Source: Olleya sp. YS
GTDB lineage: Bacteria > Bacteroidota > Bacteroidia > Flavobacteriales > Flavobacteriaceae
Length of the DNA stretch: 64,000 nt
NCBI RefSeq assembly: GCF_029760915.1
Contig: NZ_CP121685.1
Location: forward strand, 62,001-126,000
Reading direction: 5' to 3'
Both the position numbers and the translations under genes were made by a program. Shown piece by piece: positions 11,096 to 46,503 of this stretch; positions within the stretch are counted from its first letter, which is position 1; each line of letters begins with the position of its first letter. A model generated the notes under the pieces. It ran no database searches. It had not been told where the DNA came from and saw nothing but the letters and a program-made list of their open reading frames with translations.

Positions 11096-12988
11096 TTATG
11101 ATTTAAACCTTTTTAAAAAACTCATTATTTTCGTCACATTTTTGACTCCTATTAAAGCTTTACCTTTTTTTAAGGCAAATTGTTTTCTATCGTTAAAACT
11201 TAACTTATTTTTTTTATTTAATTGTTCCTTAATTTTAGATAGTTTGAAAGTTGTTTCATCTTTACTTAAAGAGGAATCTAAACCAACTTTAATTAAACTA
11301 TTAATCGTTTTTTTAGTAAAATCAAACTTTCCAATATATTCATTTAAAGTTAATGCGACAGAGTATATATCTGAAAATCTATCAGATTGTAGTTTAAATT
11401 TATCGCCTAATCCAACAGGAGTAATTTTATTTTTATCGTAATTATAGACACTCCATCCAAAATCTATTAACCTTGGAGATAATTTGCCTCTATCATTGCT
11501 TACTACTAGTATATTATTTGGTCTAATATCTCTATGTATAATATCATTATTATTAAGTTCTATTAGCATGTCTATTAAGTCTTTAATAAAATCATTAATA
11601 CCACTTGTAGACCAAAATGAAGCAATATTATTAATCTCTAAAAAAGAAACACCATTAATTTTCTCAATTTCAACTTTATCGTAGTCTCCTACTTTACTAA
11701 AAGACAATACTTTTGGAAAATAAATGGAATCCTTAAGTGTATTTAGAAAACGATTTTCGTTATGACTAACAGGGAACGATGCGATTTTTATTATGCTATT
11801 AGGTGTTTGGTAAACCTCAGTAAAAAACGACTCGTTTTCAGTTCTAGTAGTACTAGATGTAATTAGTGTCCCTAAGTTAGTTGTTACATTTTGAATATTA
11901 GAAAATTCAATATTCTTTTTATTAAAATGAACCGAAAAGTCTTTTGGAAGCGAATATTGGTAACCGTTTTGAAGCATAAATTGATTTAATAACTCGCCTG
12001 TTTCTTTTAAACTAAGCGTTTTATTATAATTGATATCACTTCTTTCTGCAATAGTTTCTAGTTTGATTTTATAATCTTGTGCAATATGTCTTTTTTGTAC
12101 ATAGGCATGATATAAGAGTGAATAAAAATGATTTTTATCATCTGGTATATAAAAGTTATAATCAGATAATTGACGGTTTTTTAAAATATTAAACTCCCAT
12201 TTTTTATCATAATAATCATCACCCAAATACCTGAAATCAAATGGTACTTCTTCGTTATTAATATTTATATAATGGTAAACACGATGCTTTAAATCTGGAA
12301 AAGCAGTCTTTGCACCTGTTATGTATTTAGTATAATTAAGATGCTCTACCAATAAATCAATATCGCCATGTCCTTCTACGTGATAGTCGTTTGGTAGGCA
12401 ATCAAAATTTCTAAGCACAACGTATTCCAGACTATTATTTAAAGCAAAAAACAACTCGTCTATTGATTTCCAAAAAGGAACACCTAGAACATTATTTTTC
12501 TTATTTATAGTTTTTGAAGTCTGTTTGTAATTATTTTTATAATCTTTTAATGTGGTATTTAATAAAAATGAAATGTCTTTATTAGATTCAAAGTAATTGT
12601 CTGACGCGTGTATTTTGTGTCCTCCACCTGTTAACGCTCTAAATTTTGCTTTTTTATCAAAAACATTTGTGTTTACAGTAGTAATACCGTTTGAAGTCTT
12701 ACGGTTTTCAAATTTAGGATTTTCATCTTCAAAAATTAAAACAGTAAAATCATCTGATCCACAATGTTCAATTTTTCCTGTTATTATTGCATCAAATTCA
12801 GCTTCGGTTTTATCTTTTTGAGAATGTGAATAAAAACGTTTTAGATTTTCATGAAACAATTCTTCTTTCCATGAAAATTGAAACGTATTTAATACATTAA
12901 ATGAATTAGAAATGTCTTGAGAAATTGCTTGTAAATGCGATTTTCCTTTTGACCAAACAATTAATATATGAATTAAAGCTTCATTCAT
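11096..12988 (-). CDS. Three-part protein: unknown N-domain, nucleotidyltransferase-like middle, kinase-fold C-domain
   Basis: This 630-residue protein lies between Wzt and the glycosyltransferases. Residues 1-145 form an unknown domain with RFYSHS at 51-56 and TGGGHKIHASD at 120-130. Residues 165-315 resemble a nucleotidyltransferase fold, with GHGDIDLLV at 206-214 (paired acidic residues) and PFDFRY at 249-254. Residues 385-560 resemble a protein or small-molecule kinase, with Lys401 in IIKIAS, IIHRDIRPNNIL at 483-494 (catalytic Asp487, Asn492) and LIDFGWS at 507-513 (metal-binding Asp509). All core kinase residues are present, so it is probably active. I infer that it phosphorylates or caps the glycan, by analogy with WbdD, but homology to WbdD was not tested. 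A regulatory protein kinase is the alternative. Confidence 0.7.
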   Translation of the reverse strand: MNEALIHILIVWSKGKSHLQAISQDISNSFNVLNTFQFSWKEELFHENLKRFYSHSQKDKTEAEFDAIITGKIEHCGSDDFTVLIFEDENPKFENRKTSNGITTVNTNVFDKKAKFRALTGGGHKIHASDNYFESNKDISFLLNTTLKDYKNNYKQTSKTINKKNNVLGVPFWKSIDELFFALNNSLEYVVLRNFDCLPNDYHVEGHGDIDLLVEHLNYTKYITGAKTAFPDLKHRVYHYININNEEVPFDFRYLGDDYYDKKWEFNILKNRQLSDYNFYIPDDKNHFYSLLYHAYVQKRHIAQDYKIKLETIAERSDINYNKTLSLKETGELLNQFMLQNGYQYSLPKDFSVHFNKKNIEFSNIQNVTTNLGTLITSSTTRTENESFFTEVYQTPNSIIKIASFPVSHNENRFLNTLKDSIYFPKVLSFSKVGDYDKVEIEKINGVSFLEINNIASFWSTSGINDFIKDLIDMLIELNNNDIIHRDIRPNNILVVSNDRGKLSPRLIDFGWSVYNYDKNKITPVGLGDKFKLQSDRFSDIYSVALTLNEYIGKFDFTKKTINSLIKVGLDSSLSKDETTFKLSKIKEQLNKKNKLSFNDRKQFALKKGKALIGVKNVTKIMSFLKRFKS

Positions 12989-12989
12989 A

Positions 12990-14270
12990 TTATTTAGTAA
13001 AATGCCACTCGTTACGTTTTAAAATAAGTGGGATATCTGATGTCACTAAACGTCCAGAATTAAAATAATCTGTAGGATCAATAATTAAATCTGAAACTTT
13101 TACTATATGATCTAAAAGTGCATCGGGTGATTTAACCGAAATATTTATATAATATTCTCCAGGCTTAATTTCTAGACCGTTTTTTAATGAACAGATAAGC
13201 GTATTTTCGCCTTTAGATAAATCAAAGATTGTTGAAGTGTCTCTAGAATCGAAAGCTAAAATCCTTGTTTCATTTTGATCAAATATAGTTATACGTACAG
13301 TTACTTTAACATCAACTTTACTGCTCAATTTTATTTCAAAATATGTAGGTTCATTAATTAATAGCCTATCAGTAATTTCTTTTTTATTATTTAACGTTTC
13401 AAACCCAATAAAACTAACAGGTTTGTTGGCTCTATTTCTATTTAAAAAATCAAACTTATTAACCTCTTGTGTGACTTGTTTTCTATAATTTTCAATAGTC
13501 TCTTCTATTGGACCTTCAAAAGCTATTGTACCATTAGACAACAACAAACCTCTTGTACATAGTTTTTGTACAGACGCCATGTTATGGCTTACAAACAACA
13601 CTGTACGTCCTTCACCTCTTGAGATGTCTTGCATTTTTCCAATTGCTTTCTTTTGAAACTCAGCATCACCTACAGCTAAAACCTCATCTATAACTAATAT
13701 TTCTGGTTCTAAAAAAGCAGCTACTGCAAAAGCTAAACGGACTGTCATTCCAGAACTGTAGCGTTTTACAGGAGTATCTATATAGCGTTGACAGCCTGAA
13801 AACTCTATGATTTCTTCAATTTTTGAGGAGATTTCTTTTTTGGTCATTCCCAAAATGGCTCCATTTAAGTATACGTTTTCACGTCCTGTCATTTCGCCAT
13901 GAAATCCTGTACCCACTTCTAATAAAGAGGCTATACGTCCTCTGGCTTTAATTTCACCAGTGGTTGGTCCTGTGACTTTTGATAAGATTTTTAGAAGGGT
14001 TGATTTTCCTGCTCCATTTTTTCCAATAATCCCTAAAACTTCTCCTTTTTTGACTTCAAAATTAATATCCTTTAAAGCCCAAACATATTCCGAGTCTCCT
14101 TTAGTACTTCTATCATTAGACTCACCAACTTTTAAATACGGATCCTCTTTACCACGTACTTTATGCCACCAACGATTTAAATCGTGACTTATGGTGCCTG
14201 TTCCAACCAAACCTAAACGGTATTGTTTGGAAATATTTTCTGCTTTTAATATTACACGCTGCTCTGACAT
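12990..14270 (-). CDS. wzt: Polysaccharide ABC transporter ATPase with C-terminal glycan-recognition-like domain
   Basis: The 426-residue protein has a complete ABC ATPase in its first 260 residues: Walker A GKNGAGKST at 83-91, signature YSSGM at 171-175, Walker B ILVIDE at 191-196 and the H-loop SHN near 230. The extra domain at about 275-426 is rich in beta-strand-like segments and matches the place and size of Wzt C-terminal domains, which in some O-antigen systems bind the finished, capped chain. It pairs with the permease gene that follows two bases upstream on this strand. The likely job is to power export of a lipid-linked polymer across the inner membrane. Confidence 0.9.
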   Translation of the reverse strand: MSEQRVILKAENISKQYRLGLVGTGTISHDLNRWWHKVRGKEDPYLKVGESNDRSTKGDSEYVWALKDINFEVKKGEVLGIIGKNGAGKSTLLKILSKVTGPTTGEIKARGRIASLLEVGTGFHGEMTGRENVYLNGAILGMTKKEISSKIEEIIEFSGCQRYIDTPVKRYSSGMTVRLAFAVAAFLEPEILVIDEVLAVGDAEFQKKAIGKMQDISRGEGRTVLFVSHNMASVQKLCTRGLLLSNGTIAFEGPIEETIENYRKQVTQEVNKFDFLNRNRANKPVSFIGFETLNNKKEITDRLLINEPTYFEIKLSSKVDVKVTVRITIFDQNETRILAFDSRDTSTIFDLSKGENTLICSLKNGLEIKPGEYYINISVKSPDALLDHIVKVSDLIIDPTDYFNSGRLVTSDIPLILKRNEWHFTK

Positions 14271-14271
14271 A

Positions 14272-15168
14272 CTAAACGGTATCTATAAAAGATTTTTCTG
14301 TTTTATTGAAAACCACTAACCCTAACAAAGCTATAAATACAGTAACAAACAAGGTTATTAGTATACCTTTTATTGAAAAACTACCTTGAGAAAAAAACAT
14401 GTATCTAAAGGTTTCCACAACATTTGCTAACGGATTATTTTCTATTATAGGATTAATAATATTTGCTGTTTTCGGGAAATTATTTTGAATTTTTTCAACC
14501 GCTACATTTATTGGGTACATTACAGCAGAAATGTACATAAGTAATTGCACGCCAAAACCAACAAGAAAAGTTAGGTCTCTATATTTTGTAGTCATAGACG
14601 ATATAATCATCCCTAAGCCTAAACCCAACAATCCCATTAGTAAAACCAAAAGGGGAAATAGCATTAAAACTTTAAAGTCTATAATACCTGCATTATTTTG
14701 CATTGCAAAAAACACATAAAAACCAATAAATATTAAAAATTGTATAGCAAATTTTAATAATGCAGAAATAACTACAGTCATAGGCATAATGACTCTTGGA
14801 AAATAGACTTTACTAAATATACCTTGATTTTTTTTAAACGAATCACTAGTACCTTTTAAACATTCTGCAAAATAATTCCATATAGTGATTCCAGCTAGAT
14901 TAAACAAAAAAGGATGTACACCTGTACCGACGTCAATATTAGCAATACCATTAAATATTATTGTAAAAATTACAGATGTTATTAAGGGTTGTATTAAATA
15001 CCATAAAGGACCTAACACAGTTTGCTTATACATAGTAATAACATCTCGTTTTACAAATAGCACAAGCAAATCACGATAACGCCAAATCTCTTTAAAATTA
15101 AAATCGACAAGCTTTTGCTTTGGTGAAATGGTATATAACCAATCTGATTTTAGATTATCCTTTTCCAA
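14272..15168 (-). CDS. wzm: Polysaccharide ABC-2 type transporter permease
   Basis: This 298-residue integral membrane protein has about six hydrophobic segments and the ABC-2 layout seen in Wzm/TagG/KpsM. WRYRDLLVLFVKRDVITMYK near residues 29-48 is the coupling N-terminal helix region and LGPLWYLIQPLIT follows it. It forms the membrane channel for the adjacent Wzt-type ATPase. Its start is 22 bases after the stop of the tyrosine kinase gene. Pairing a Wzm/Wzt exporter with Wza/Wzc-type genes is common in Bacteroidota and suggests export across both membranes through one apparatus. Confidence 0.9.
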   Translation of the reverse strand: MEKDNLKSDWLYTISPKQKLVDFNFKEIWRYRDLLVLFVKRDVITMYKQTVLGPLWYLIQPLITSVIFTIIFNGIANIDVGTGVHPFLFNLAGITIWNYFAECLKGTSDSFKKNQGIFSKVYFPRVIMPMTVVISALLKFAIQFLIFIGFYVFFAMQNNAGIIDFKVLMLFPLLVLLMGLLGLGLGMIISSMTTKYRDLTFLVGFGVQLLMYISAVMYPINVAVEKIQNNFPKTANIINPIIENNPLANVVETFRYMFFSQGSFSIKGILITLFVTVFIALLGLVVFNKTEKSFIDTV

Positions 15169-15190: not shown

Positions 15191-17653
15191 TTATTTAAAA
15201 GGATTTAAAAAAGTAGTTACTTTTTTAATAAATGAGTCCTTATTTTTTTCTTCTTCATGATAACCATTAGTATAATTACCATAACCGTAACCATAACCGT
15301 AGCCATAACCATAGCCATAACCATATTTTCCTTTTTGGTCATAACCGTTATACAAGAAACTAATATTATTAATCTCGCCTTTTTTGTGTTTATCGTTAAT
15401 AAGGTTAAGCATTTCTTTTTTGGTATAATCTTGTCTTACTACATACAATGACGCATCTGCGTAGGTTAATAATTCCATTGCATCTGCAACCAAACCAACA
15501 GGAGGTGTATCTAAAATAATATAGTCATAATTAGCTTTAAGGTGATTCATTAACTCATCCATTTTTTCACTAATCAATAATTCAGACGGATTTGGTGGTA
15601 TGGGTCCAGAGGTTATAACATCTAAATTGTTAACTTTTGTACTTTGTGTCACCTCTTCCAAAGTTTTTTGACCTATTAAGTAATTAACTGCTCCAATATC
15701 GTTTTGGATATCAAAATCTCCAAAAATTTTAGGCTTACGTAAGTCTAAGCCAACTAATACTGTTTTTTTACCACTTAAAGCAAAAACGGTTGCAATATTT
15801 ATAGAGCAAAATGTTTTCCCTTCTCCACTAACAGACGACGTAATCATAACGGTTTTAGTACTATCCAAATCGTGTTGCTTATACATATATTGCAAACTTG
15901 ATCGTATAGCACGAAACGCTTCCGCAACTGCAGACTTTGGTTTACGGTGTACCGCTAAATTATTATCTAATAAATTTTTACCGACAACACCTAATAATGG
16001 TATATTACTTAAATTTTCTAAATTTTTAGGTGTATGTATTTTAGTATCAAAAAAGATAACTAAAAACGCCAGCAATAATGGTGGCAAAATCCCACCAAAA
16101 AATGCAAATAAATATCTAGAGCTTAGTTTTAAATCTATTGGACGCGCGCCTGTATTTTTAGCAGAGTCAATCCATAAAATATCAGAGACTGTTGCTGCTT
16201 TAATAATATCTGCCTCACCACGTTTGGACAGAAATAGATTATATGTTTTTTCGTTTAATAGATATTGACGTTCTATATCTAATAAGTTTTGTTGATCTCT
16301 TGGTAATTTATTAAACTGTCCTTTGGCAGTTCCAATTTTACCATTTATTAAATTAAGTTCTCGGTTTAATCCAATTGATGCAGAACTGATATTTTCTAGC
16401 AATACCATTTTAATACTTTCAATTTGTCTATCTAAATCATCAAATATAGATGCTCCTGGTTGTACAGTAGCTTCGTATTTAGCACGTTGTACAGATAGTG
16501 CATTAATTTTTGAAATATTATTTAAAATATTACCGTCGTCTATTCCAGCAACTGATGGTGCTGGTAAGTCTGTAAACGTTTTACTGTTTTCTAAATAGGA
16601 TTTTAAACCTGCATAATAGGCCTTTTTACGATTAATATCATCTCGCTGAAATTCTAAATCTGTTAACTTTTGTGAGATTTGCTCACTTTCTTGATCTAAG
16701 TTGTAAATTCCGTTTCTAGAACGGTATTCATTTAAAGCATCCGCATTTCCTGTTAAAGAGTCTTTAACGCGATTTAGTTGACTATCAATAAACTCAATTG
16801 TATTAGTTACAAACTGATTTTTTCGTTCTAGTTGCTCTTTTGTGACTACCTTGACAGTTTCATTTAAATAATCTTCAATCTTCTTAGTATTATGATCAAC
16901 CATACTTAGGCTAATGATGGCAGAATTTCTAGGATTATTAATAGTTAATTTTCCTCTGTATTTTGCAACAACAGCATCAAATGGCAGTAGCTGTAGAAAA
17001 TAAGAGTCTCCAGATTTAGGTGTACTGTCCTCAACAATATTTATAGTTCCTTTTAAGTAGGGTAAATCAATAAACTCTCCCAAGGTAAAGCGTTTTGTAT
17101 TTACCCCTTGAGGCACATCCACTGATTTAACTGCAAAATTAGAATACTTTTGAGCACTAGCGACTGTAGTTTCAAAATTAAATTCCAATTCAGCTTCACC
17201 TTGTCCTAAAAAAGTAATTTTAATAGGCTTATTTAGTAATTGAAATCCAGTAGTATCTAAAGTAAATCTAAATGGTGCGTCCTTATAGACATCATCTTTT
17301 CTAAATCTAGATTGTTTCAAATACGTTACATAAAACTCTAAGTTTTTTACAACTTGTTCATGCAAGCTTCTAGATTGCAATGTATTTATTAATGTTTGTA
17401 CTTTACCAGAAACTCCTCCATAATTAAAGGTTAAATTAGTGTTGGAGGTAAACAACGGGTTTTTATCGTCTTCAATAGATATTTTAGTACTTAATCTATA
17501 GGATTGCTGCTTGCGTATATTTTGTTGATAGACAATAAAAACACCAATCCCAACACATAATATAAACAGCTTCCAATAACTAAGCGCTTTAAATAAAAAG
17601 GCTTTAATATCAAATGCAGGACTAGAGTCTAAAACATCAAATTCTTCATTCAT
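15191..17653 (-). CDS. wzc: Wzc-like polysaccharide co-polymerase / tyrosine autokinase with Gly-Tyr tail
   Basis: The 820-residue protein has a first membrane segment at about 24-45, a long periplasmic coiled-coil Wzz-type region, and a second membrane segment near 507-530. A cytoplasmic BY-kinase domain follows, with Walker A SGEGKT near 606, Walker A' LVGLDLRKPK near 635 and Walker B YIILDTPP near 708. The C-terminus holds an unbroken run of Gly-Tyr pairs at about 770-789 plus further tyrosines, the autophosphorylation cluster in this family. Cycling of tail phosphorylation normally controls assembly of the export complex and chain length. The Wza gene lies nine bases upstream, in the usual order. 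Confidence 0.92.
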   Translation of the reverse strand: MNEEFDVLDSSPAFDIKAFLFKALSYWKLFILCVGIGVFIVYQQNIRKQQSYRLSTKISIEDDKNPLFTSNTNLTFNYGGVSGKVQTLINTLQSRSLHEQVVKNLEFYVTYLKQSRFRKDDVYKDAPFRFTLDTTGFQLLNKPIKITFLGQGEAELEFNFETTVASAQKYSNFAVKSVDVPQGVNTKRFTLGEFIDLPYLKGTINIVEDSTPKSGDSYFLQLLPFDAVVAKYRGKLTINNPRNSAIISLSMVDHNTKKIEDYLNETVKVVTKEQLERKNQFVTNTIEFIDSQLNRVKDSLTGNADALNEYRSRNGIYNLDQESEQISQKLTDLEFQRDDINRKKAYYAGLKSYLENSKTFTDLPAPSVAGIDDGNILNNISKINALSVQRAKYEATVQPGASIFDDLDRQIESIKMVLLENISSASIGLNRELNLINGKIGTAKGQFNKLPRDQQNLLDIERQYLLNEKTYNLFLSKRGEADIIKAATVSDILWIDSAKNTGARPIDLKLSSRYLFAFFGGILPPLLLAFLVIFFDTKIHTPKNLENLSNIPLLGVVGKNLLDNNLAVHRKPKSAVAEAFRAIRSSLQYMYKQHDLDSTKTVMITSSVSGEGKTFCSINIATVFALSGKKTVLVGLDLRKPKIFGDFDIQNDIGAVNYLIGQKTLEEVTQSTKVNNLDVITSGPIPPNPSELLISEKMDELMNHLKANYDYIILDTPPVGLVADAMELLTYADASLYVVRQDYTKKEMLNLINDKHKKGEINNISFLYNGYDQKGKYGYGYGYGYGYGYGYGNYTNGYHEEEKNKDSFIKKVTTFLNPFK
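15265..15335 (-). repeat. Hexanucleotide tandem repeat coding for (Gly-Tyr)n
   Basis: About nine imperfect copies of a six-base unit, ccataa/ccgtaa/ccatag on the plus strand, encode alternating Gly-Tyr at the end of the Wzc-like kinase. A unit of six keeps the frame when copies are gained or lost, so the number of tyrosines could vary between strains without inactivating the gene. Third-position changes between copies (cat/cgt, taa/tag) show the array is not brand new. Confidence 0.9.
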
Positions 17654-17662
17654 AATAACTAA

Positions 17663-18463
17663 TTAAAGGTTTTTAGCTAAAAAATAAGTAGAAATCAAAA
17701 CAGAGAAGATACTTGCTATTGTAGTAAAGGTTTGCGTAGCAGTTTGACCTGCACCTAATGCCTTACGTTTAAGAGGTTTTACTAATATCATATCGTTTGG
17801 CTGTATGTAATAGTATGGTGATTTCATAGCTGCTTTATCTGTTAAATCGATATGATGAATTTTTTGTCCATTAGGATATTGCCTAATCACCAATACATCT
17901 TTACGGTCACCAGTATCTGAAATATCTCCAGCATTAGCTAAAGCCTCGATGATATTTACACGATCTTGAAATAAAGTTAGAACTCCACCTCCACCTACTT
18001 CTCCTGTTACAGTATAACGCAATCCTGCTAGTTTAACAGTCACAAATATTTTAGATACATCTTTTAAGTACTTATCTAACAATGCTTGCTTCACTTTATC
18101 CTCAATTTCATCTGTTGTAAATCCTAATACATTCACTTTTTCTAAAATAGGAAACTCAATATTTCCGTGTAAATCGACAGTAAACCCATTAAAATATAAA
18201 TTCTGACTGTTACCAGAACCTGCAACTTGTTCTGTTGGTTGAAAAATTTCAACTAATTTTTTTAATTCACTATCTGTAGATTTTATACTAACACTTAATA
18301 TATCATTAATTTGAACTCGGTAAGGTGTTGCTAATGCTTGGATTTGAAGTGAGTCATCTACAATCGTTCCTTTATCTTGTAGATAAACCACGTCTTTATT
18401 TGTAATACATGACGTACTTAAAAGGCTAAATACTACCATGATACAGACTATAATTTGCTTCAT
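17663..18463 (-). CDS. wza: Wza-like polysaccharide export lipoprotein
   Basis: From the ATG at 18463 the protein has 266 residues and a lipoprotein signal: MKQIIVCIMVVF followed by the lipobox LSTSC, with Cys19 as the lipid site. An upstream in-frame ATG at 18514 exists, but it would bury the signal peptide 17 residues inside, and the -7 promoter element (18486-18493) lies between the two, so 18463 is the start. The body has the Poly_export domain (YRVQINDILSVSIKS near 45-60) and SLBB-type segments (YTVTGEVGGGGVLTLF near 150). A hydrophobic C-terminal stretch ends the protein. It should form the outer-membrane/periplasmic exit channel for the glycan and work with the downstream Wzc-type protein. 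Confidence 0.9.
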   Translation of the reverse strand: MKQIIVCIMVVFSLLSTSCITNKDVVYLQDKGTIVDDSLQIQALATPYRVQINDILSVSIKSTDSELKKLVEIFQPTEQVAGSGNSQNLYFNGFTVDLHGNIEFPILEKVNVLGFTTDEIEDKVKQALLDKYLKDVSKIFVTVKLAGLRYTVTGEVGGGGVLTLFQDRVNIIEALANAGDISDTGDRKDVLVIRQYPNGQKIHHIDLTDKAAMKSPYYYIQPNDMILVKPLKRKALGAGQTATQTFTTIASIFSVLISTYFLAKNL

Positions 18464-18485
18464 TGTTGAGGCGTTTGTTAATTGA

Positions 18486-18516
18486 CAAATATAACCTTTC
18501 ATCGTGAAAAACAAAA
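18486..18516 (-). promoter_or_regulatory. Bacteroidota-type promoter of the polysaccharide operon
   Basis: On the minus strand TATATTTG (18493-18486) matches the -7 consensus TAnnTTTG exactly, and TTTTG (18516-18512) lies 18 bases upstream as the -33 element. The predicted start of transcription would leave a leader of roughly 15-20 bases before the wza ATG. I saw no comparably good promoter further down in the locus, though I did not scan every coding base. Confidence 0.7.
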
Positions 18517-27448: not shown

Positions 27449-30400
27449 CTATTCAATAACTATCTTTTTAATACCACTACTAGATTCAGCTACTACCCTA
27501 ACCAAATAAGCTCCAGAGCTTAATCCAGTAATTGATATTCCATTTTTAGCTTCTTCTGTTGTCACATCTTTAAACGAAACAACTTGTTGACCCAACATAT
27601 TTATTAAACTAATGGATTTAATGTCTTCTTTTAATCCACTAATTACTAATAAGTCTTTGGTGTTATTAAAGAAAACTGTGACTCCATCTCCTAACAGTAA
27701 ATCATCAGTAGATAAAACTGTTTGCTCTTTAAACACAACTTCAAATCTATCATTAAAGCTACCTGCTTGACTTGTAAATGTGAAGTCTGATTGTCTGATA
27801 TCATGAAAAGTATTTGTATAATTATCTTTAATAAATACATCTTGATCAGAATCAAAATCAACAAAACCACCTATACTTATTGTAAAAGACTGATTAGTTG
27901 AAGCGCTAAAAATTAACGGTATTACTTTATTTGGTGTTATTGGACTATACGCTTGCATAACCATTGGTATGTCATTTAAAACCAAGTTTAAATCATCATT
28001 TTTAAAAGATTCACTTCTTGCATCGTAACCATAATCAAATGTATCAGTAGTGTTGTTGCTAAATCCTAAAACTAATTCTCTTGTTGCTCCATTTTCTGCA
28101 TTCATAAATAGCCTAAACTTACTTATTGTAGTATCAGAATTATCAGAATCTGAGTTTGATTGGTTGTTTGTTGTTCTAAAGAATACTGATCCAGCATAAA
28201 ATGATCCGTTTGCATCTGCTTCTTTAACAAATACACGTTGAGAATTATTGAATTCAATAGTTCCATCAGCAACCACTTCAGTAATAAAACCTTGTCCTAC
28301 AGGCAAATATCTTGTTGCAGATAATGTACCGTCTTGAGCAGAACTATCTATGCCTCCTTCTATGCCAACAAATTGATATGCATCTACAGATGCAAGTTTA
28401 TTCACTACAGCATACCCACCATTATAGTCGGATAAGTTGTGAGAACTACCACTCCATTGTTGCCATAATTTAATACTTCCATCTATTACACCTGCATTAT
28501 CATCTATAAATTTAAAAAGATCTATAGCAGAAGGATAAGGGTTTCCTAACAAGTATTCTGTTTTTGTATAACCACCAGCTTGAGTTGGATCAGAGCCTGG
28601 TCCACCTACATCTACAGCATTAATATGAATAACGCCGTTATTCGGTTTACCTTTAAATATATATTGTTGTTCTGTTCCCATTCCTGTACCTTTTTGAGTA
28701 TACCCAGTACCAGCAGGTATTACATCTGATGGACTAATGTGTGACCAATCATAATAGGACACTCCATTAATAAAATCGTATAACCAATAAGTACTTATAC
28801 TACCATTTGCATGATAAGCATTAGTAAATGATACAGGACTTTCATCTCCATATTGTAAATTATTTAATGAATATCCAATATTATTTACATTATTGAAGGC
28901 ATTATTATCTGTTAATGAAGATGCTGATGAGTTACTTACTGGTGAGCTAAAATAGTTGTACCAATAAACGCTTGATGTCCCTTCTTGTCTTCTTAAGATT
29001 TCTCCTGTACTAGAAGTTACTAAATCACTCTGGATCCCTTGTATTAACTGAGAATCATCTTTTAAATCAATAGTACCATCTAAACCTAAATACCAACTAT
29101 TAACAATCTCATTATCATTATTGACAGTTATTTTTTTATTTGGACTTACAAGTAATCCTAGTGTGTTAAATGACTTATCAACAATAATATCATGATCCAC
29201 TTGTATAATTGCATTTCCTGAATCACTTAATTCATCTAAATTCCATACATCACCATATAACCAACTATTAACGTTGTTAATATTGCCTGCTCCAGAAGTT
29301 CTGTATGGCATTGGAGCGGTTTGTTCTTGATAAGTTGTTATATTATTTAAGTAAAGAGTGTTACCATTACCCGAATAATCTGTAGTTCTTCCTCCTACAA
29401 TATCTGTCATTGGGTAGTAGGCTTTTAAGTTAGACCAAGAAATAGTTAATGAAGTGTTTTTATCCACAATCGTTTTAGGGATAATTAATCCTGATACACT
29501 TCCAGAGTTTTCTTCAATTTCTTGATGCATAATTTTTTTCATCTGGTCTTCTGATAAGGTAACATCAAAAACTCGAATTTCATCAATACATCCTTTAAAA
29601 TACCCTGAATTATCATAAGGTCCTTTTCCAACATTAAAACTAACGTCTTCTGTTATTAAAGGATTTTTTAAATCTGCATGACTACTAGTGCCCAAAAGTT
29701 GCCCGTCCACATAAACTTTTAAATTATTTGATGGCAAAGAACTATCAAAAATTAGTGCTATGTGATACCAAATATTTGAATCCAAAATAACATCTGTTGA
29801 AAAATCAGCATTCACATTATTGACTTCTACAATTAGTTTTCTTGTGGCATCAACTTCAATATTTAAAGCACCTTGACTTAACACATATCCACTATTAGCA
29901 AAAGATGGGTCTAATTTTACCCAAGCCATAATAGTTGATTTAGAATAACCTCCAACATTTAAATTACTATCTAAATAATCATCTACTCCATCGAAATCTA
30001 AAGTTGATGCTGAGTCAGAGAATAAACAATAATTTGCTGGAATTTCAAGCTCATAATCCTGTATTGAACAATTGCCTGAATCATCTGTTATAGTAAAAAC
30101 AAAGGTGGTATTTGTATTGTTAAATGGTCCCAATATTAACGGTGTTCCGTATGTACCAGTTCCAGATATATCTCCTGTAACAGTATAAGAAGCTCCTAAT
30201 CTAGATCCTTCTGGATTTATGGAAATGTTAAAACCATCGTCTGTAGAGTCTTTAGGTGTACCGTTATCATCACATACAATATTTACATTTGGATTTTCTA
30301 AATAGCATCTAAGTAAACCAAAATCATTTGATTTTGAGCAATTTCCAAAACTTCCTGGAGCAAAAGTAGCTACTTCAATATTATCAGTACTGAATATATA

Positions 30401-33400
30401 ACCAGATGGCAAAGTGGAAGTATCTACTTCCATTACAATATCTTCACCACTTACTTTATATCTAATTACTATATCATCAAAAAAGAAATATTCATCACTA
30501 GCAGTATAGCCATTTACTACAGCTCTAATGGTTGTTGTAGCTGTTAGTTTATCTGCGTCTATTGCTAGTCCATTAATTGTAGAACTTATAAAATCGTTAG
30601 CTTTAAAAAATAAGGTTTGACAGTTAGTAAAAGAATTGTTGTCACAAATTTGTATAGTGATATCATCAGAAGCATCTATTTTTCCTCTTTCTAATACTTT
30701 AAAAGAAATATTTGCTTCTGTTACACCAGATAAGTTTACGCTTCTGTAAGCAGAAACATTATCATGCATTCTAAGTCGCTTTTTACTCCCCCAAATTTGT
30801 ACGTCACCTGAGGCACTATTGGAGTCATCCCCAACTTCTGTCCAATTTGTTGACCATCCATTTCCTCCACTATAATTGTTAGAATCAAAACTATCTGAAA
30901 TTTCTACATTATAATTTGGAGACTCAAAGTAATAAAAACCGTCTTCTTTAGTTGTCACTTGAGTAAACAATACGTCTGTACCAGCATCTATTAATCCATT
31001 GGTGTTTATATCATCATAAATATTTATATCAATATTTCCAATTCCAATATCATCATTATTGACGGTATCTTCGTTTAAATCAAAAAAGACTTGACCATAA
31101 ATAATATTTTTATTTCCTGGTGTTGGACAATCTGCAACATTTACAGTTACTAGAGCAGTATCACACGTTCCTGGAAACTCTAAAGAACAAATATTGTATT
31201 CAAAAGTATCTTCGCCAATAAAACCAGTATTAGGTGTATACGTGATTGTACCGTCGTCATTTACAATTAAAGTACCATTTTGAGGTTGTATTAACCCATC
31301 TGTAGTAATTGAAGTTAAATCTATATTTGTTAAAAACTGCGTGTCATTATAGGAGACATTTACATTAATTGGTGTTTCAAATAACGCATAAGCATTATCA
31401 TTATTTGCAAAAACTAGCGCTTTTAAACACAATGGTTGCATTGTTGTACCAACGTCCAAGGATCCAGTACCAGCACCACTTGCTGCTATACCAGCATCTT
31501 GACCAAAAACTGAAAATATTTTTGTACCATCACAAGTAAATACCGCTAGTCCACTTTGGTCATTGTCTGCATTTAGCGTATCAAATATTTGAGTATAATT
31601 TAGCGCATTTAAAGTTCGTGATTCATCATAAGGAATGTTACATGGGCTTAAAGCTGCGCTGGAGTCTGTTAAATCTCCATCATATTTTATGTATATAGTT
31701 GTATTACTTGTTGGTGTCACCCAAACTGGATTATAGTTATTTTGAAAATCCAAAGTACCAGGAGCCCAAGCAATAGCAGCAAAATCTGTTAATCGTTCTT
31801 CTGATATTAAATTAAAAGCCCAATCGTAAGCTTGTCCGCTTGAATCTGAATCAACTACTTCACTTGCAACATAAGATGACCCATCTTGACTTTTAAATTT
31901 ATATCCTGAATTATCACTTAAACTTATGGATGAAGATGATTTTGCAGGAATAGTTATTGTTCCGTTATTACTGTTAGAATTCCAATCTATAGCAATACTT
32001 CTATTTAAACTGTTATAAAAATAAACCACAGCTGGAGCTGCACTATTAGTAGTAGGAACTGGTGAATAATATGTATCTGAATAAAATTTTGAAGGATATA
32101 TATTTATTTGACGTGTACCAAAACAATCTTTAGCTCCAAAAAACAAATCAACTCCTACTGGTAAATCACTTGTAATAATTGCTCCAGATTGCACGCCACC
32201 ATCAACAAACATAACTTCTCCTTCATCTAAGTTATCTGTAACATCGACAACTCCATCATTATCCAAGTCCACATTAACAGTAGTACCGTTCTCTGAAGCT
32301 CTAACAAATAAAGCTGTATATATAAATTCTTGTCCTAAATCTTCACCAAAAGGAACTGTAAAGGAAGTTCCAAACTTATCAATACTGTAAACATCTGTTT
32401 TAGCTAATTGCACCTCAAATCTGTCAATATCTCCTGCAATAGCAGACATCGCAATATCATTAGATGTCACAATTTTATCTCTTCCATCATAAACAATAGT
32501 AGATGAATTTCTAGGATTATAGTTATAAGTGTTCTCTAAAACAATATCTCCTCCAGAAGGAATATAATCCGTAGAGTAATTAGGCGAAGTACCATTTGTA
32601 ATATCCTCATCTCCCCAAACTTGCGTTGTTGCTTGTACTGGGTTATTAATGTCAACTTCATAACCATCTTCCCAGTGATCATAAACTATAACTGTACCTG
32701 GATAAGGACTTTTTATACTTACAATTCTATTGACCTCATTTGTAACAGGAAGATTACATACTGCTGTATTAGTATTTCCAGAATTATTAAAAGCTGTTCT
32801 TAAATCGTCGTCAGAAAAAGGCACATAATAGACTTGTTCTTGTACTGCTTGTATACAAGGATCTATATAATTCTCATCAACATCTATAGTTACTGTGGCT
32901 GTATCACATAAAGGTATTGGTAATGTTGTATCACAAATTTCATATGAAAATGTATCAGTACCAAAAAAGTTACCATTAGGTGAATAAATAATATTACCAG
33001 AACTATCTATACTTACACTTCCATCCATTGGTTGGGTTGTAATAACTAATGATGAGCTATCAATATTATCATCTCCATCTGTATCATTATCTAAAACATC
33101 AATCGATACTGATTCTCCTTGAATTACTGTAGCAAAATCATCTTGTGCTACAGGATTACAATTGGGACCACACATATATAGTCCAAAATTGTTATTACAA
33201 TCTCTCTGACCTATATTGTTAAAAGATACAGCAATTGTACTTGCTGATGTTTTTGTCATACCAGAAGGTATAGTTGCATCATCAAGACTTACTATTAAAT
33301 TTTCGTAAAAACCACCACCTAAAGCTAAATCTAGATTTACATTATCAAAATACAAATAATTACTTCTTTCTTCTCCTATACTACCACTACCTAAAAATCG

Positions 33401-34099
33401 AATGTAAGTACTTCCTCCAATAACCGATGATACATCATAAGAATAATTTTGTTCTGCATCAGAAAAAGAGATGTTATCTATAGTAGTAAAATTAGTTCCA
33501 TCTGAAGATATTTGAACATTGACTGAAAAATTTTGTCCACTTGAAGAGTTAATATTTTTGGTGAAATCAAATGAAAGAGTTCCTGAAGCATAACTGGATG
33601 TAGTTATTAACCTTACTACACCATCTCCGTTTATGTTAGATCCGTCTTCTGCATATCTACCAAATCTTAATTTATTGTTATCAACCCTAACATTTCCAGA
33701 AGTTACTCCACTTTCACCCAATTCTTGCCAATTGTTATCCCAATTGATTGATCCATTATTTCCAGACCACGATGTAGCATCAAAGTTATCAGCAACGTTA
33801 TCGTAAGTAAATAATTCGGGAGCTACTAAAGTATAGTTACCTGTGGCATCAGATATATCAGAATCTATTAAAACATCTTCCGAATCTAAAATACCATTAA
33901 CATTAACATCTTGATACAGATTAACACCTATATTTTGTATGGTAGGCTCAATTCCGCTTTTATTACCATTTTGATTTAAGTCATTAAAAACTAAACCGTA
34001 AACGGTGTTTTGATTTGGAATAACTGATCCACATTGCGCAGTTAATTTTTGTGCACAAAAAAGCGCACAAACAACTATGGTTAATAAAATTTTCTTCAT
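27449..34099 (-). CDS. Giant T9SS-secreted, multidomain adhesin-like surface protein
   Basis: The 2216-residue protein has a signal peptide (MKKILLTIVVCALFCAQKLTAQ) and a C-terminal type A sorting domain at about 2137-2216. That domain carries the ISLINMLGQQV, GISITGLSSGAYLVRV and IKKIVIE blocks used by the type IX system. Between them lie, in order, an SdrD_B-like segment (GLVFNDLNQNG, about 31), an Ig/cadherin-like repeat with DVLDNDTDGDD near 333, and a long region near 450-800 starting VNRIVSIKSPYPGT. Then come a second Ig-like repeat near 915-985, a second SdrD_B-like segment near 1000, a LamG-like domain from LDFDGVDDYLDS near 1368, and a C-terminal module near 2000-2130 (ELVLGFSNN..FDYGYDA). 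Asp/Asn-rich loops suggest calcium binding. It is probably anchored to the surface or released, with a role in adhesion or glycan contact. Confidence 0.88.
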   Translation of the reverse strand: MKKILLTIVVCALFCAQKLTAQCGSVIPNQNTVYGLVFNDLNQNGNKSGIEPTIQNIGVNLYQDVNVNGILDSEDVLIDSDISDATGNYTLVAPELFTYDNVADNFDATSWSGNNGSINWDNNWQELGESGVTSGNVRVDNNKLRFGRYAEDGSNINGDGVVRLITTSSYASGTLSFDFTKNINSSSGQNFSVNVQISSDGTNFTTIDNISFSDAEQNYSYDVSSVIGGSTYIRFLGSGSIGEERSNYLYFDNVNLDLALGGGFYENLIVSLDDATIPSGMTKTSASTIAVSFNNIGQRDCNNNFGLYMCGPNCNPVAQDDFATVIQGESVSIDVLDNDTDGDDNIDSSSLVITTQPMDGSVSIDSSGNIIYSPNGNFFGTDTFSYEICDTTLPIPLCDTATVTIDVDENYIDPCIQAVQEQVYYVPFSDDDLRTAFNNSGNTNTAVCNLPVTNEVNRIVSIKSPYPGTVIVYDHWEDGYEVDINNPVQATTQVWGDEDITNGTSPNYSTDYIPSGGDIVLENTYNYNPRNSSTIVYDGRDKIVTSNDIAMSAIAGDIDRFEVQLAKTDVYSIDKFGTSFTVPFGEDLGQEFIYTALFVRASENGTTVNVDLDNDGVVDVTDNLDEGEVMFVDGGVQSGAIITSDLPVGVDLFFGAKDCFGTRQINIYPSKFYSDTYYSPVPTTNSAAPAVVYFYNSLNRSIAIDWNSNSNNGTITIPAKSSSSISLSDNSGYKFKSQDGSSYVASEVVDSDSSGQAYDWAFNLISEERLTDFAAIAWAPGTLDFQNNYNPVWVTPTSNTTIYIKYDGDLTDSSAALSPCNIPYDESRTLNALNYTQIFDTLNADNDQSGLAVFTCDGTKIFSVFGQDAGIAASGAGTGSLDVGTTMQPLCLKALVFANNDNAYALFETPINVNVSYNDTQFLTNIDLTSITTDGLIQPQNGTLIVNDDGTITYTPNTGFIGEDTFEYNICSLEFPGTCDTALVTVNVADCPTPGNKNIIYGQVFFDLNEDTVNNDDIGIGNIDINIYDDINTNGLIDAGTDVLFTQVTTKEDGFYYFESPNYNVEISDSFDSNNYSGGNGWSTNWTEVGDDSNSASGDVQIWGSKKRLRMHDNVSAYRSVNLSGVTEANISFKVLERGKIDASDDITIQICDNNSFTNCQTLFFKANDFISSTINGLAIDADKLTATTTIRAVVNGYTASDEYFFFDDIVIRYKVSGEDIVMEVDTSTLPSGYIFSTDNIEVATFAPGSFGNCSKSNDFGLLRCYLENPNVNIVCDDNGTPKDSTDDGFNISINPEGSRLGASYTVTGDISGTGTYGTPLILGPFNNTNTTFVFTITDDSGNCSIQDYELEIPANYCLFSDSASTLDFDGVDDYLDSNLNVGGYSKSTIMAWVKLDPSFANSGYVLSQGALNIEVDATRKLIVEVNNVNADFSTDVILDSNIWYHIALIFDSSLPSNNLKVYVDGQLLGTSSHADLKNPLITEDVSFNVGKGPYDNSGYFKGCIDEIRVFDVTLSEDQMKKIMHQEIEENSGSVSGLIIPKTIVDKNTSLTISWSNLKAYYPMTDIVGGRTTDYSGNGNTLYLNNITTYQEQTAPMPYRTSGAGNINNVNSWLYGDVWNLDELSDSGNAIIQVDHDIIVDKSFNTLGLLVSPNKKITVNNDNEIVNSWYLGLDGTIDLKDDSQLIQGIQSDLVTSSTGEILRRQEGTSSVYWYNYFSSPVSNSSASSLTDNNAFNNVNNIGYSLNNLQYGDESPVSFTNAYHANGSISTYWLYDFINGVSYYDWSHISPSDVIPAGTGYTQKGTGMGTEQQYIFKGKPNNGVIHINAVDVGGPGSDPTQAGGYTKTEYLLGNPYPSAIDLFKFIDDNAGVIDGSIKLWQQWSGSSHNLSDYNGGYAVVNKLASVDAYQFVGIEGGIDSSAQDGTLSATRYLPVGQGFITEVVADGTIEFNNSQRVFVKEADANGSFYAGSVFFRTTNNQSNSDSDNSDTTISKFRLFMNAENGATRELVLGFSNNTTDTFDYGYDARSESFKNDDLNLVLNDIPMVMQAYSPITPNKVIPLIFSASTNQSFTISIGGFVDFDSDQDVFIKDNYTNTFHDIRQSDFTFTSQAGSFNDRFEVVFKEQTVLSTDDLLLGDGVTVFFNNTKDLLVISGLKEDIKSISLINMLGQQVVSFKDVTTEEAKNGISITGLSSGAYLVRVVAESSSGIKKIVIE

Positions 34100-45906: not shown

Positions 45907-46353
45907 CTATTTTTTTGAAGCTTTTAACAAAGCGTTTTGCTCTTCCATTAAATCAGATAATTTTGCTAAAAGCTCGATATCTTTTGGTGTTTTTACCGTT
46001 TTATTTTTTACATCTTGAGATTTATCCCGCAATTTATTCATGGCTTTTACCACTAAAAAAACCGTTAACCCTACGATTAAAAAGTCTAACACAACTTCAA
46101 ACAGTTCTCCATAATATATTGCAACTTCTTCTGTTGTAGTTTTACCTTTACTATTTAAAACCTCTTCTCTTAATATGTAGCGTTTATTTTGAAAGTTTAA
46201 GCCATCAGTCATTAACGATAATGGTGGTAAAAACACTTTTTTTACTAATACATCTATCACTTTATTAAAGGATGCACCTATTATAATACCAATAGCCATA
46301 TCCATCATATTGCCTTTAACAGCAAATTCTTTGAATTCTTTTAGAAATTTCAT
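45907..46353 (-). CDS. mscL: Large-conductance mechanosensitive channel MscL
   Basis: The 148-residue protein has the MscL pattern. The N-terminal helix MKFLKEFKEFAVKGNMMDMAIGIIIGASFNKVIDVLV holds the pore-lining TM1 (about 16-38). A periplasmic loop follows, then TM2 (VVLDFLIVGLTVFLVVKAMNKL, about 87-108) and a charged C-terminal helix LAKLSDLMEEQNALLKA. It opens under membrane tension to release solutes during osmotic downshock. Confidence 0.95.
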   Translation of the reverse strand: MKFLKEFKEFAVKGNMMDMAIGIIIGASFNKVIDVLVKKVFLPPLSLMTDGLNFQNKRYILREEVLNSKGKTTTEEVAIYYGELFEVVLDFLIVGLTVFLVVKAMNKLRDKSQDVKNKTVKTPKDIELLAKLSDLMEEQNALLKASKK

Positions 46354-46395
46354 TAAAAAATAAATTTGATTAGGAAACTCACCGAGCTGAGTTAG

Positions 46396-46503
46396 TTATT
46401 GATTACGAGTTTTATTATAGGCTCTTACCATAACCAAAGCCCATGCAAAAACGCATAAAAACACAATAATAGAAAACCAAAATACTATACTATCTCCTTC
46501 CAT
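46396..46503 (-). CDS. 35-residue single-pass membrane peptide
   Basis: An ATG at 46503 opens a frame for MEGDSIVFWFSIIVFLCVF, followed by a short positively charged end (RAYNKTRNQ). One hydrophobic helix (about 6-26) with a positive C-terminus is what a small regulatory membrane subunit would look like. The start lies within the last bases of the 62-residue gene (14-base overlap), and a purine-rich GGAAGGAG stretch occurs at the junction. Function unknown. Confidence 0.45.
   Translation of the reverse strand: MEGDSIVFWFSIIVFLCVFAWALVMVRAYNKTRNQ

Follow-up and report, generated by a model that had tools for sequence, protein, structure and literature searches.

The Wzc-type tyrosine autokinase encoded in a 64,000-nucleotide stretch of the Olleya sp. 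YS genome (which we call the window) carries near its C-terminus eight perfect, uninterrupted Tyr-Gly units, each encoded by six bases. By analogy with E. coli K30 Wzc, we propose, with a probability of roughly 0.6, that the array would be an uninterrupted YxY ladder working as a K30-like phosphorylation ratchet, with one six-base unit per rung.

Identification of the kinase and its tail

The gene and the parts of its product that concern us here are as follows.

15191 to 17653, reverse strand: wzc-type gene, encoding an 820-residue polysaccharide co-polymerase with a BY-kinase domain at its C-terminus
15812 to 15829, reverse strand: Walker A core SGEGKT, residues 609–614
15278 to 15325, reverse strand: (Tyr-Gly)8 array, residues 777–792, made of eight hexamers of three types
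15257 to 15277, reverse strand: coda NYTNGYH, residues 793–799, with Tyr 794 and Tyr 798; similar in relatives
15194 to 15256, reverse strand: C-terminal segment past the coda, residues 800–820, the end of which is basic and weakly amphipathic

Judged by homology, the gene is a Wzc-type (PCP-2a) tyrosine autokinase of the BY-kinase kind. The profile TIGR01007 (polysaccharide tyrosine autokinase) matches residues 578–784 of the window protein with 167 bits against a cut-off of 108.05, and the E. coli Wzc structure 7nhr is a phmmer match (E = 6e-45), the best stretch being residues 446–798. The Walker A core is invariant in alignment A1, which holds 10 sequences, and the Walker A and Walker B columns K540, D642 and P645 do not vary among the 148 family members. 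The residues E578, R581 and R584 of the oligomerisation motif, which we take to be EX2RX2R, are likewise invariant in the 10-sequence alignment. At E ≤ 0.001 the 3.0-Mb genome yielded no other Wzc-type BY-kinase; the next match is a 259-residue open frame that covers residues 600–755 only.

The sequence-only reading of this DNA had placed about nine Gly-Tyr pairs at the autophosphorylation tail of a Wzc-like protein. The array is real, although it consists of eight perfect units, and its assignment to a Tyr-rich autophosphorylation tail is borne out by homology, through TIGR01007 and 7nhr. There are 12 tyrosines from residue 768 onward, of which eight are inside the array. Tandem Repeats Finder returned the identical interval, with a period of 6, 8.0 copies, 80% matches and a score of 68. 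The longest Tyr-Gly run in 2000 shuffles of the window protein was 2, and on both strands of the window this array is the only TAY-GGN run of at least three units.

Distribution of Tyr-Gly tails

The family set comprises 148 distinct Flavobacteriaceae members with a kinase identity to the query of at least 58%. Kinase matches were present in 247 of 299 family genomes, and 130 of the best 150 places were read, plus one of the other 20 (G140), a sample in which distant paralogues are underrepresented. The counts exclude seven duplicate records as well as L034 and L035, where the stretch ends inside the gene. Three remote family paralogues, which bear YGYGYNYGYGYGY, were counted apart. The order and the phylum are represented by their 22 and 30 best-scoring tails respectively, while 18 tails from the class and two extra ones from the phylum were picked by hand to span many families.

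A run of (YG)4 or longer is present in 143 of the 148 sampled family orthologues, in 20 of 22 tails from other families of the order, and in 8 of 18 tails from elsewhere in the class Bacteroidia. It was found in none of the 30 best-scoring tails from outside the class, in all of which the YG run is at most 1; these BY-kinases have a Tyr-rich tail in the equivalent position with another repeat pattern, mostly YYKYYRYYNYY- or YYKYYYYY-like. The two extra phylum tails (L246 and L247) have YG runs of 3 and 1. Carriers of the ladder include Olleya aquimaris, Hyunsoonleella flava, Jejuia pallidilutea, Algibacter lectus and Christiangramia bathymodioli. On these comparisons the YG ladder is the standard tail form among the family orthologues, and the window protein is ordinary for its group.

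Of the 148 family tails, 143 have a ladder of at least five tyrosines at every second residue. Two order members use Asn and Gly in turn as the spacer (YGYNYGYN...) and still have Tyr at each second position. Among 1,061 family units there are only six replacements at Tyr and eight at Gly, a count that favours regularity, since each span was cut at its outermost YGYG motifs and five odd-length spans were excluded. Beyond the ladder, the final 18 residues have a median net charge of +5 in those family members (143 of 148) that have at least eight residues past the last Tyr.

These features bear on the suggestion that the array is a sticky low-complexity segment, serving kinase clustering or partner binding, with phosphorylation secondary. 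Its Gly-Tyr composition resembles that of aromatic sticker-spacer sequences. The AlphaFold2 model of the window protein, made from 10 sequences, has a pTM of 0.33, a quality that does not allow the tail to be positioned; the predicted pLDDT below 50 in the tail would be compatible with disorder, and a predicted helix at residues 807–815 mostly has pLDDT below 50 as well. However, the position and homology of the array match the phospho-acceptor tail of Wzc, and a sticker does not obviously need tyrosines at exactly every second residue, a spacing kept even with Asn spacers. We consider a primarily sticky segment very improbable.

Variation in unit number

The family spans 4–11 units (mean 7.48, sd 1.33), with 6–8 units in 116 of 148 members, and the longest unbroken run in the order has 17 (L224). 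We compared 51 non-overlapping pairs from the family and the order, with kinase identity of at least 80% and no shared member, although their descent is not fully independent. Unit number differs in 21 of them: by one in 14, by two in five, by four in one and by five in one. The kinase domains of the same pairs have four indels in 9,903 aligned residues. Because indels are so rare in the kinase and changes so frequent in the array, the sequence comparison supports in-frame gain and loss of units between species. In the cleanest pair, L073 and L084, one array has exactly two extra units at its centre, flanked at either end by three units that are identical in both. The identity of this pair is 97.7–98.8% from a point 500 bases ahead of the array as far as the stop codon, 97.4% over the next 388 bases, and 93.8% over 145 bases further upstream.

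Other close pairs are less simple. Hypermutation of the array was considered for L018 and L019, whose kinase regions are 98.5% identical in nucleotides and whose arrays are very different. We rejected it: identity falls to 78% past the stop codon, and recombination may therefore explain the difference. Among 13 pairs compared, identity drops from the kinase to just past the stop in L018/L019, L079/L091, L148/L159 and L056/L060 (for example from 0.96 to 0.78, and from 0.82 to 0.43), with no such drop in the remaining pairs. In the dropping pairs the tail lies as if at the edge between conserved and exchanged DNA.

The mean difference in unit number is 1.50–1.63 across kinase identities of 55–75% and rises to 2.7–3.3 at 45–55%. 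Unit number thus wanders, and looks bounded within the family and less so across families. This matters for a neutral account, in which gaining or losing units would have no consequence as long as enough tyrosines remain for the tail to work. In E. coli, no one tyrosine is indispensable or enough by itself, and what matters is the extent of phosphorylation (PMC8285477 and PMC11986026). The order members with up to 17 unbroken units also fit a neutral account. Against it, the narrow band in the family and the flat differences at 55–75% identity suggest a bound, although a mutational equilibrium could give an equal band. On balance we find neutrality doubtful.

The DNA repeat

Read in coding order, the hexamers of the window array are TATGGT TATGGC TATGGT TATGGC TACGGT TATGGT TACGGT TATGGT. 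No two neighbours are identical, and the array also divides into two 12-base blocks with two copies of each. The DNA repeat is degenerate, with 80% matches to a six-base consensus, and is not a near-perfect tandem repeat (VNTR). Across 30 same-length pairs, third bases differ at 257 of 478 array codons (54%), very close to the 278 of 528 (53%) for kinase Gly and Tyr codons in the same comparison: the codons change but the amino-acid pattern persists. A constant unit number together with codon-level conservation had been named in advance as the outcome that would speak against slippage; between species, neither held.

These observations also bear on a contingency locus, in which the repeat would slip within a population so that cells vary in tyrosine number and polysaccharide output. 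The array is indeed far more prone to indels than the kinase domain, and the near-identical L073 and L084 genes are two units apart. Runs of at least four identical hexamers occur in 16 of 163 arrays compared with about nine in shuffles, including one run of 11 (L219), so that some lineages have probably expanded recently. However, the window array contains no such run and has no identical neighbours at all, not one of the 163 arrays has all its units identical, and most of the family stays at 6–8 units. A contingency function therefore seems unlikely to us. The claim that the number of tyrosines changes without a frameshift is upheld as a difference between species rather than as a current switch in a population, and falls away where it relied on a homogeneous, slippage-prone six-base repeat. 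L224, with its 17 units, and L219, with 12 units of which 11 hexamers are identical, both from other families of the order, are good candidates for active slippage.

Over the 163 arrays, neighbouring hexamers are less alike than in shuffles (0.163 vs 0.213; 0/2000), and hexamers two apart are more alike (0.272 vs 0.214). Selection against slippage, as a reading of the unlike neighbours, was rejected. The effect is lost when one array is kept per 75%-identity cluster (38 arrays, 0.228 vs 0.231), and column shuffles of equal-length arrays gave 518/1000 at or below the observed value for n = 7 and 73/1000 for n = 8. The excess at two apart weakly persists in the 38 arrays (0.289 vs 0.233, 18/1000). 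Outside the array, same-residue codon pairs two apart show a similar small deficit (0.377 vs 0.407), in a control whose Gly/Tyr part may be dominated by one conserved site.

Gene neighbourhood

The kinase gene is flanked by genes for polysaccharide export.

17663 to 18514, reverse strand: wza-like gene for an outer-membrane polysaccharide export protein (Poly_export PF02563, E = 6.6e-14), directly upstream of wzc
14272 to 15168, reverse strand: wzm-like ABC-2 permease gene (PF01061), directly downstream of wzc
12990 to 14270, reverse strand: wzt-like ABC ATPase gene (PF00005; Wzt_C below the curated cut-off)

The arrangement recurs: a wzm-like frame starts within about 0.5 kb past wzc in 9 of 9 relatives (L003–L011), and a wzm-like match is present in 7 of 8 same-genus loci (L013–L020). 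According to a review (PMC12220298), ABC exporters are tied mainly to PCP-3 proteins rather than to PCP-2 kinases, and a Wzc (PCP-2a) and wza beside Wzm/Wzt-like ABC exporter genes therefore form an unusual neighbourhood. Adjacency alone does not show that wzc and wzm/wzt, as identified from sequence, work together. The genome has a Wzy_C match at 45,945–46,397, about 16 kb before the start of the window.

In E. coli K-12, wzb adjoins wzc. A K30-type linked Wzb phosphatase was not found here when the genome was searched with PF01451 and PF19567: the sole low-molecular-weight tyrosine phosphatase match (PF01451) is unlinked, at genome position 1470–1892, about 75 kb from wzc, and the CpsB/CapC family (PF19567) gave no match in the genome profile search.

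Two further open reading frames of the window may be mentioned. The translation of a 630-residue frame in the polysaccharide cluster (11096–12988, reverse strand) contains HRDIRPNNIL, presumably a protein-kinase-like stretch. A 2216-residue frame (27449–34099, reverse strand) has a signal-peptide-like start and repeated domain-like stretches, and is possibly a secreted surface protein.

Comparison with the K30 ratchet and a proposed mechanism

The likeness to E. coli K30 and K-12 Wzc extends over the Walker A and B motifs, the EX2RX2R motif, a Tyr-rich C-terminal YxY tail and the presence of wza in the gene group. PMC11986026 and PMC8285477 describe the K30 Wzc tail as entering the active site of a neighbour. 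In the account of PMC11986026, Tyr i is at the catalytic centre while Tyr i−2 occupies a pocket, phosphorylation advances in the C-to-N direction, the octamer disassembles after the fourth event, and the YxY pattern is given the name "ratchet". The K30 spacing is broken at N711, and a Tyr put there orders the tail. Its target tyrosines, as given there, are 708, 713, 715, 717 and 718, whereas the window protein has eight unbroken rungs, two more tyrosines and a basic end. Tyrosines at i and i−2, the spacing that a K30-type tail requires, follow one another eight times in a row in the window array. The ladder is thus longer than the four phosphorylations that precede disassembly of the K30 octamer, and 22 residues follow the last Tyr compared with five in E. 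coli K-12 Wzc.

We suggest the following working for the window protein. Within the kinase ring, one tail would thread into the active site of its neighbour, so that Tyr i lies where catalysis takes place while Tyr i−2 is held in a pocket. Phosphorylation would then move along the ladder by two residues per step, each six-base unit supplying one rung, and stepping would end when the ring loosens, after which a phosphatase would reset it. This presupposes that the tail is phosphorylated in the window protein and that i/i−2 stepping applies to it. Unit number would then be under stabilising selection, because the number would set the phosphorylation capacity.

The pocket itself seems to differ from that of K30. 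In one MAFFT alignment of the 148 family members, the K30 E675 column holds Met in all 148 and the S679 column holds Ile, Val or Leu in all 148, so that no K30-type tyrosine pocket with E675 and S679 was found among them. The L647 column (residue 720 of the window protein) holds Gly in 145 of 148, and the P536 column Ser in 146 of 148. Because these columns differ, charge-based rejection of phosphotyrosine may not work as it does in K30. In the column next to 675 the window protein has Glu; of the 148 family members, 37 have Glu or Asp there and 101 have Gly, and Glu or Asp is found in 26 of the 30 kinases outside the class. A misalignment by one column at 675 would soften the pocket difference for some members, the window protein included. 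Three readings fit: a rebuilt pocket, a pocket retained in part, or a different means of holding the tail.

The family members with Gly in the L647 column nearly all have GY tails. The column is also Gly in 19 of 22 order members, and Ile, Leu or Val in 30 of 30 kinases outside the class, which have other tails. At this column it is possible that pocket and tail type co-vary.

The closest published case of varying repeat number among the matches listed is the [YGX] tail of CpsD/Wze from Streptococcus pneumoniae (PCP-2b), likewise a tandem-repeat Tyr tail of a BY-kinase. There, according to PMC8519296, serotype 19A subtype V has four rather than three [YGX] units. The two systems differ in that the (YGX)n unit of CpsD is three residues long, is present in few copies and belongs to a kinase that is a separate polypeptide, whereas the Wzc type described here has a two-residue, six-base unit, 4–11 copies in the family and up to 17 unbroken in the order, all in a single chain. 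The three-residue Y-G-X unit was not found in the window tail. Among the matches listed, with most subscription journals outside the scope of the search, none dealt with Wzc tails made of GY repeats in Bacteroidota.

Implications

It had also been proposed that unit number tunes chain length or export. By analogy with the mechanism in PMC11986026 and the threshold model in PMC12220298, such tuning is plausible, and tuning of chain length agrees with that published threshold model. A bolder version, which we put forward as speculative and rather unlikely, is that the Bacteroidia Wzc tail is an evolvable step counter, an unbroken Tyr ladder read by a rebuilt pocket with Met/Gly/Ile instead of Glu/Leu/Ser, in which one unit more or less shifts the phosphorylation threshold and polymer length.

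The Tyr-Gly ladder is real and well conserved across the family, in a protein of a known kind. Its number of rungs varies, and its mechanistic fit to the recent ratchet model is tentative in view of the changed pocket. The changed pocket columns raise the question of whether the direction of the ratchet is enforced in another way. Because nature has provided homologous kinases whose tails range from about 4 to 17 equal rungs, the ratchet model is directly testable, by comparing polymer length or octamer lifetime with rung number.
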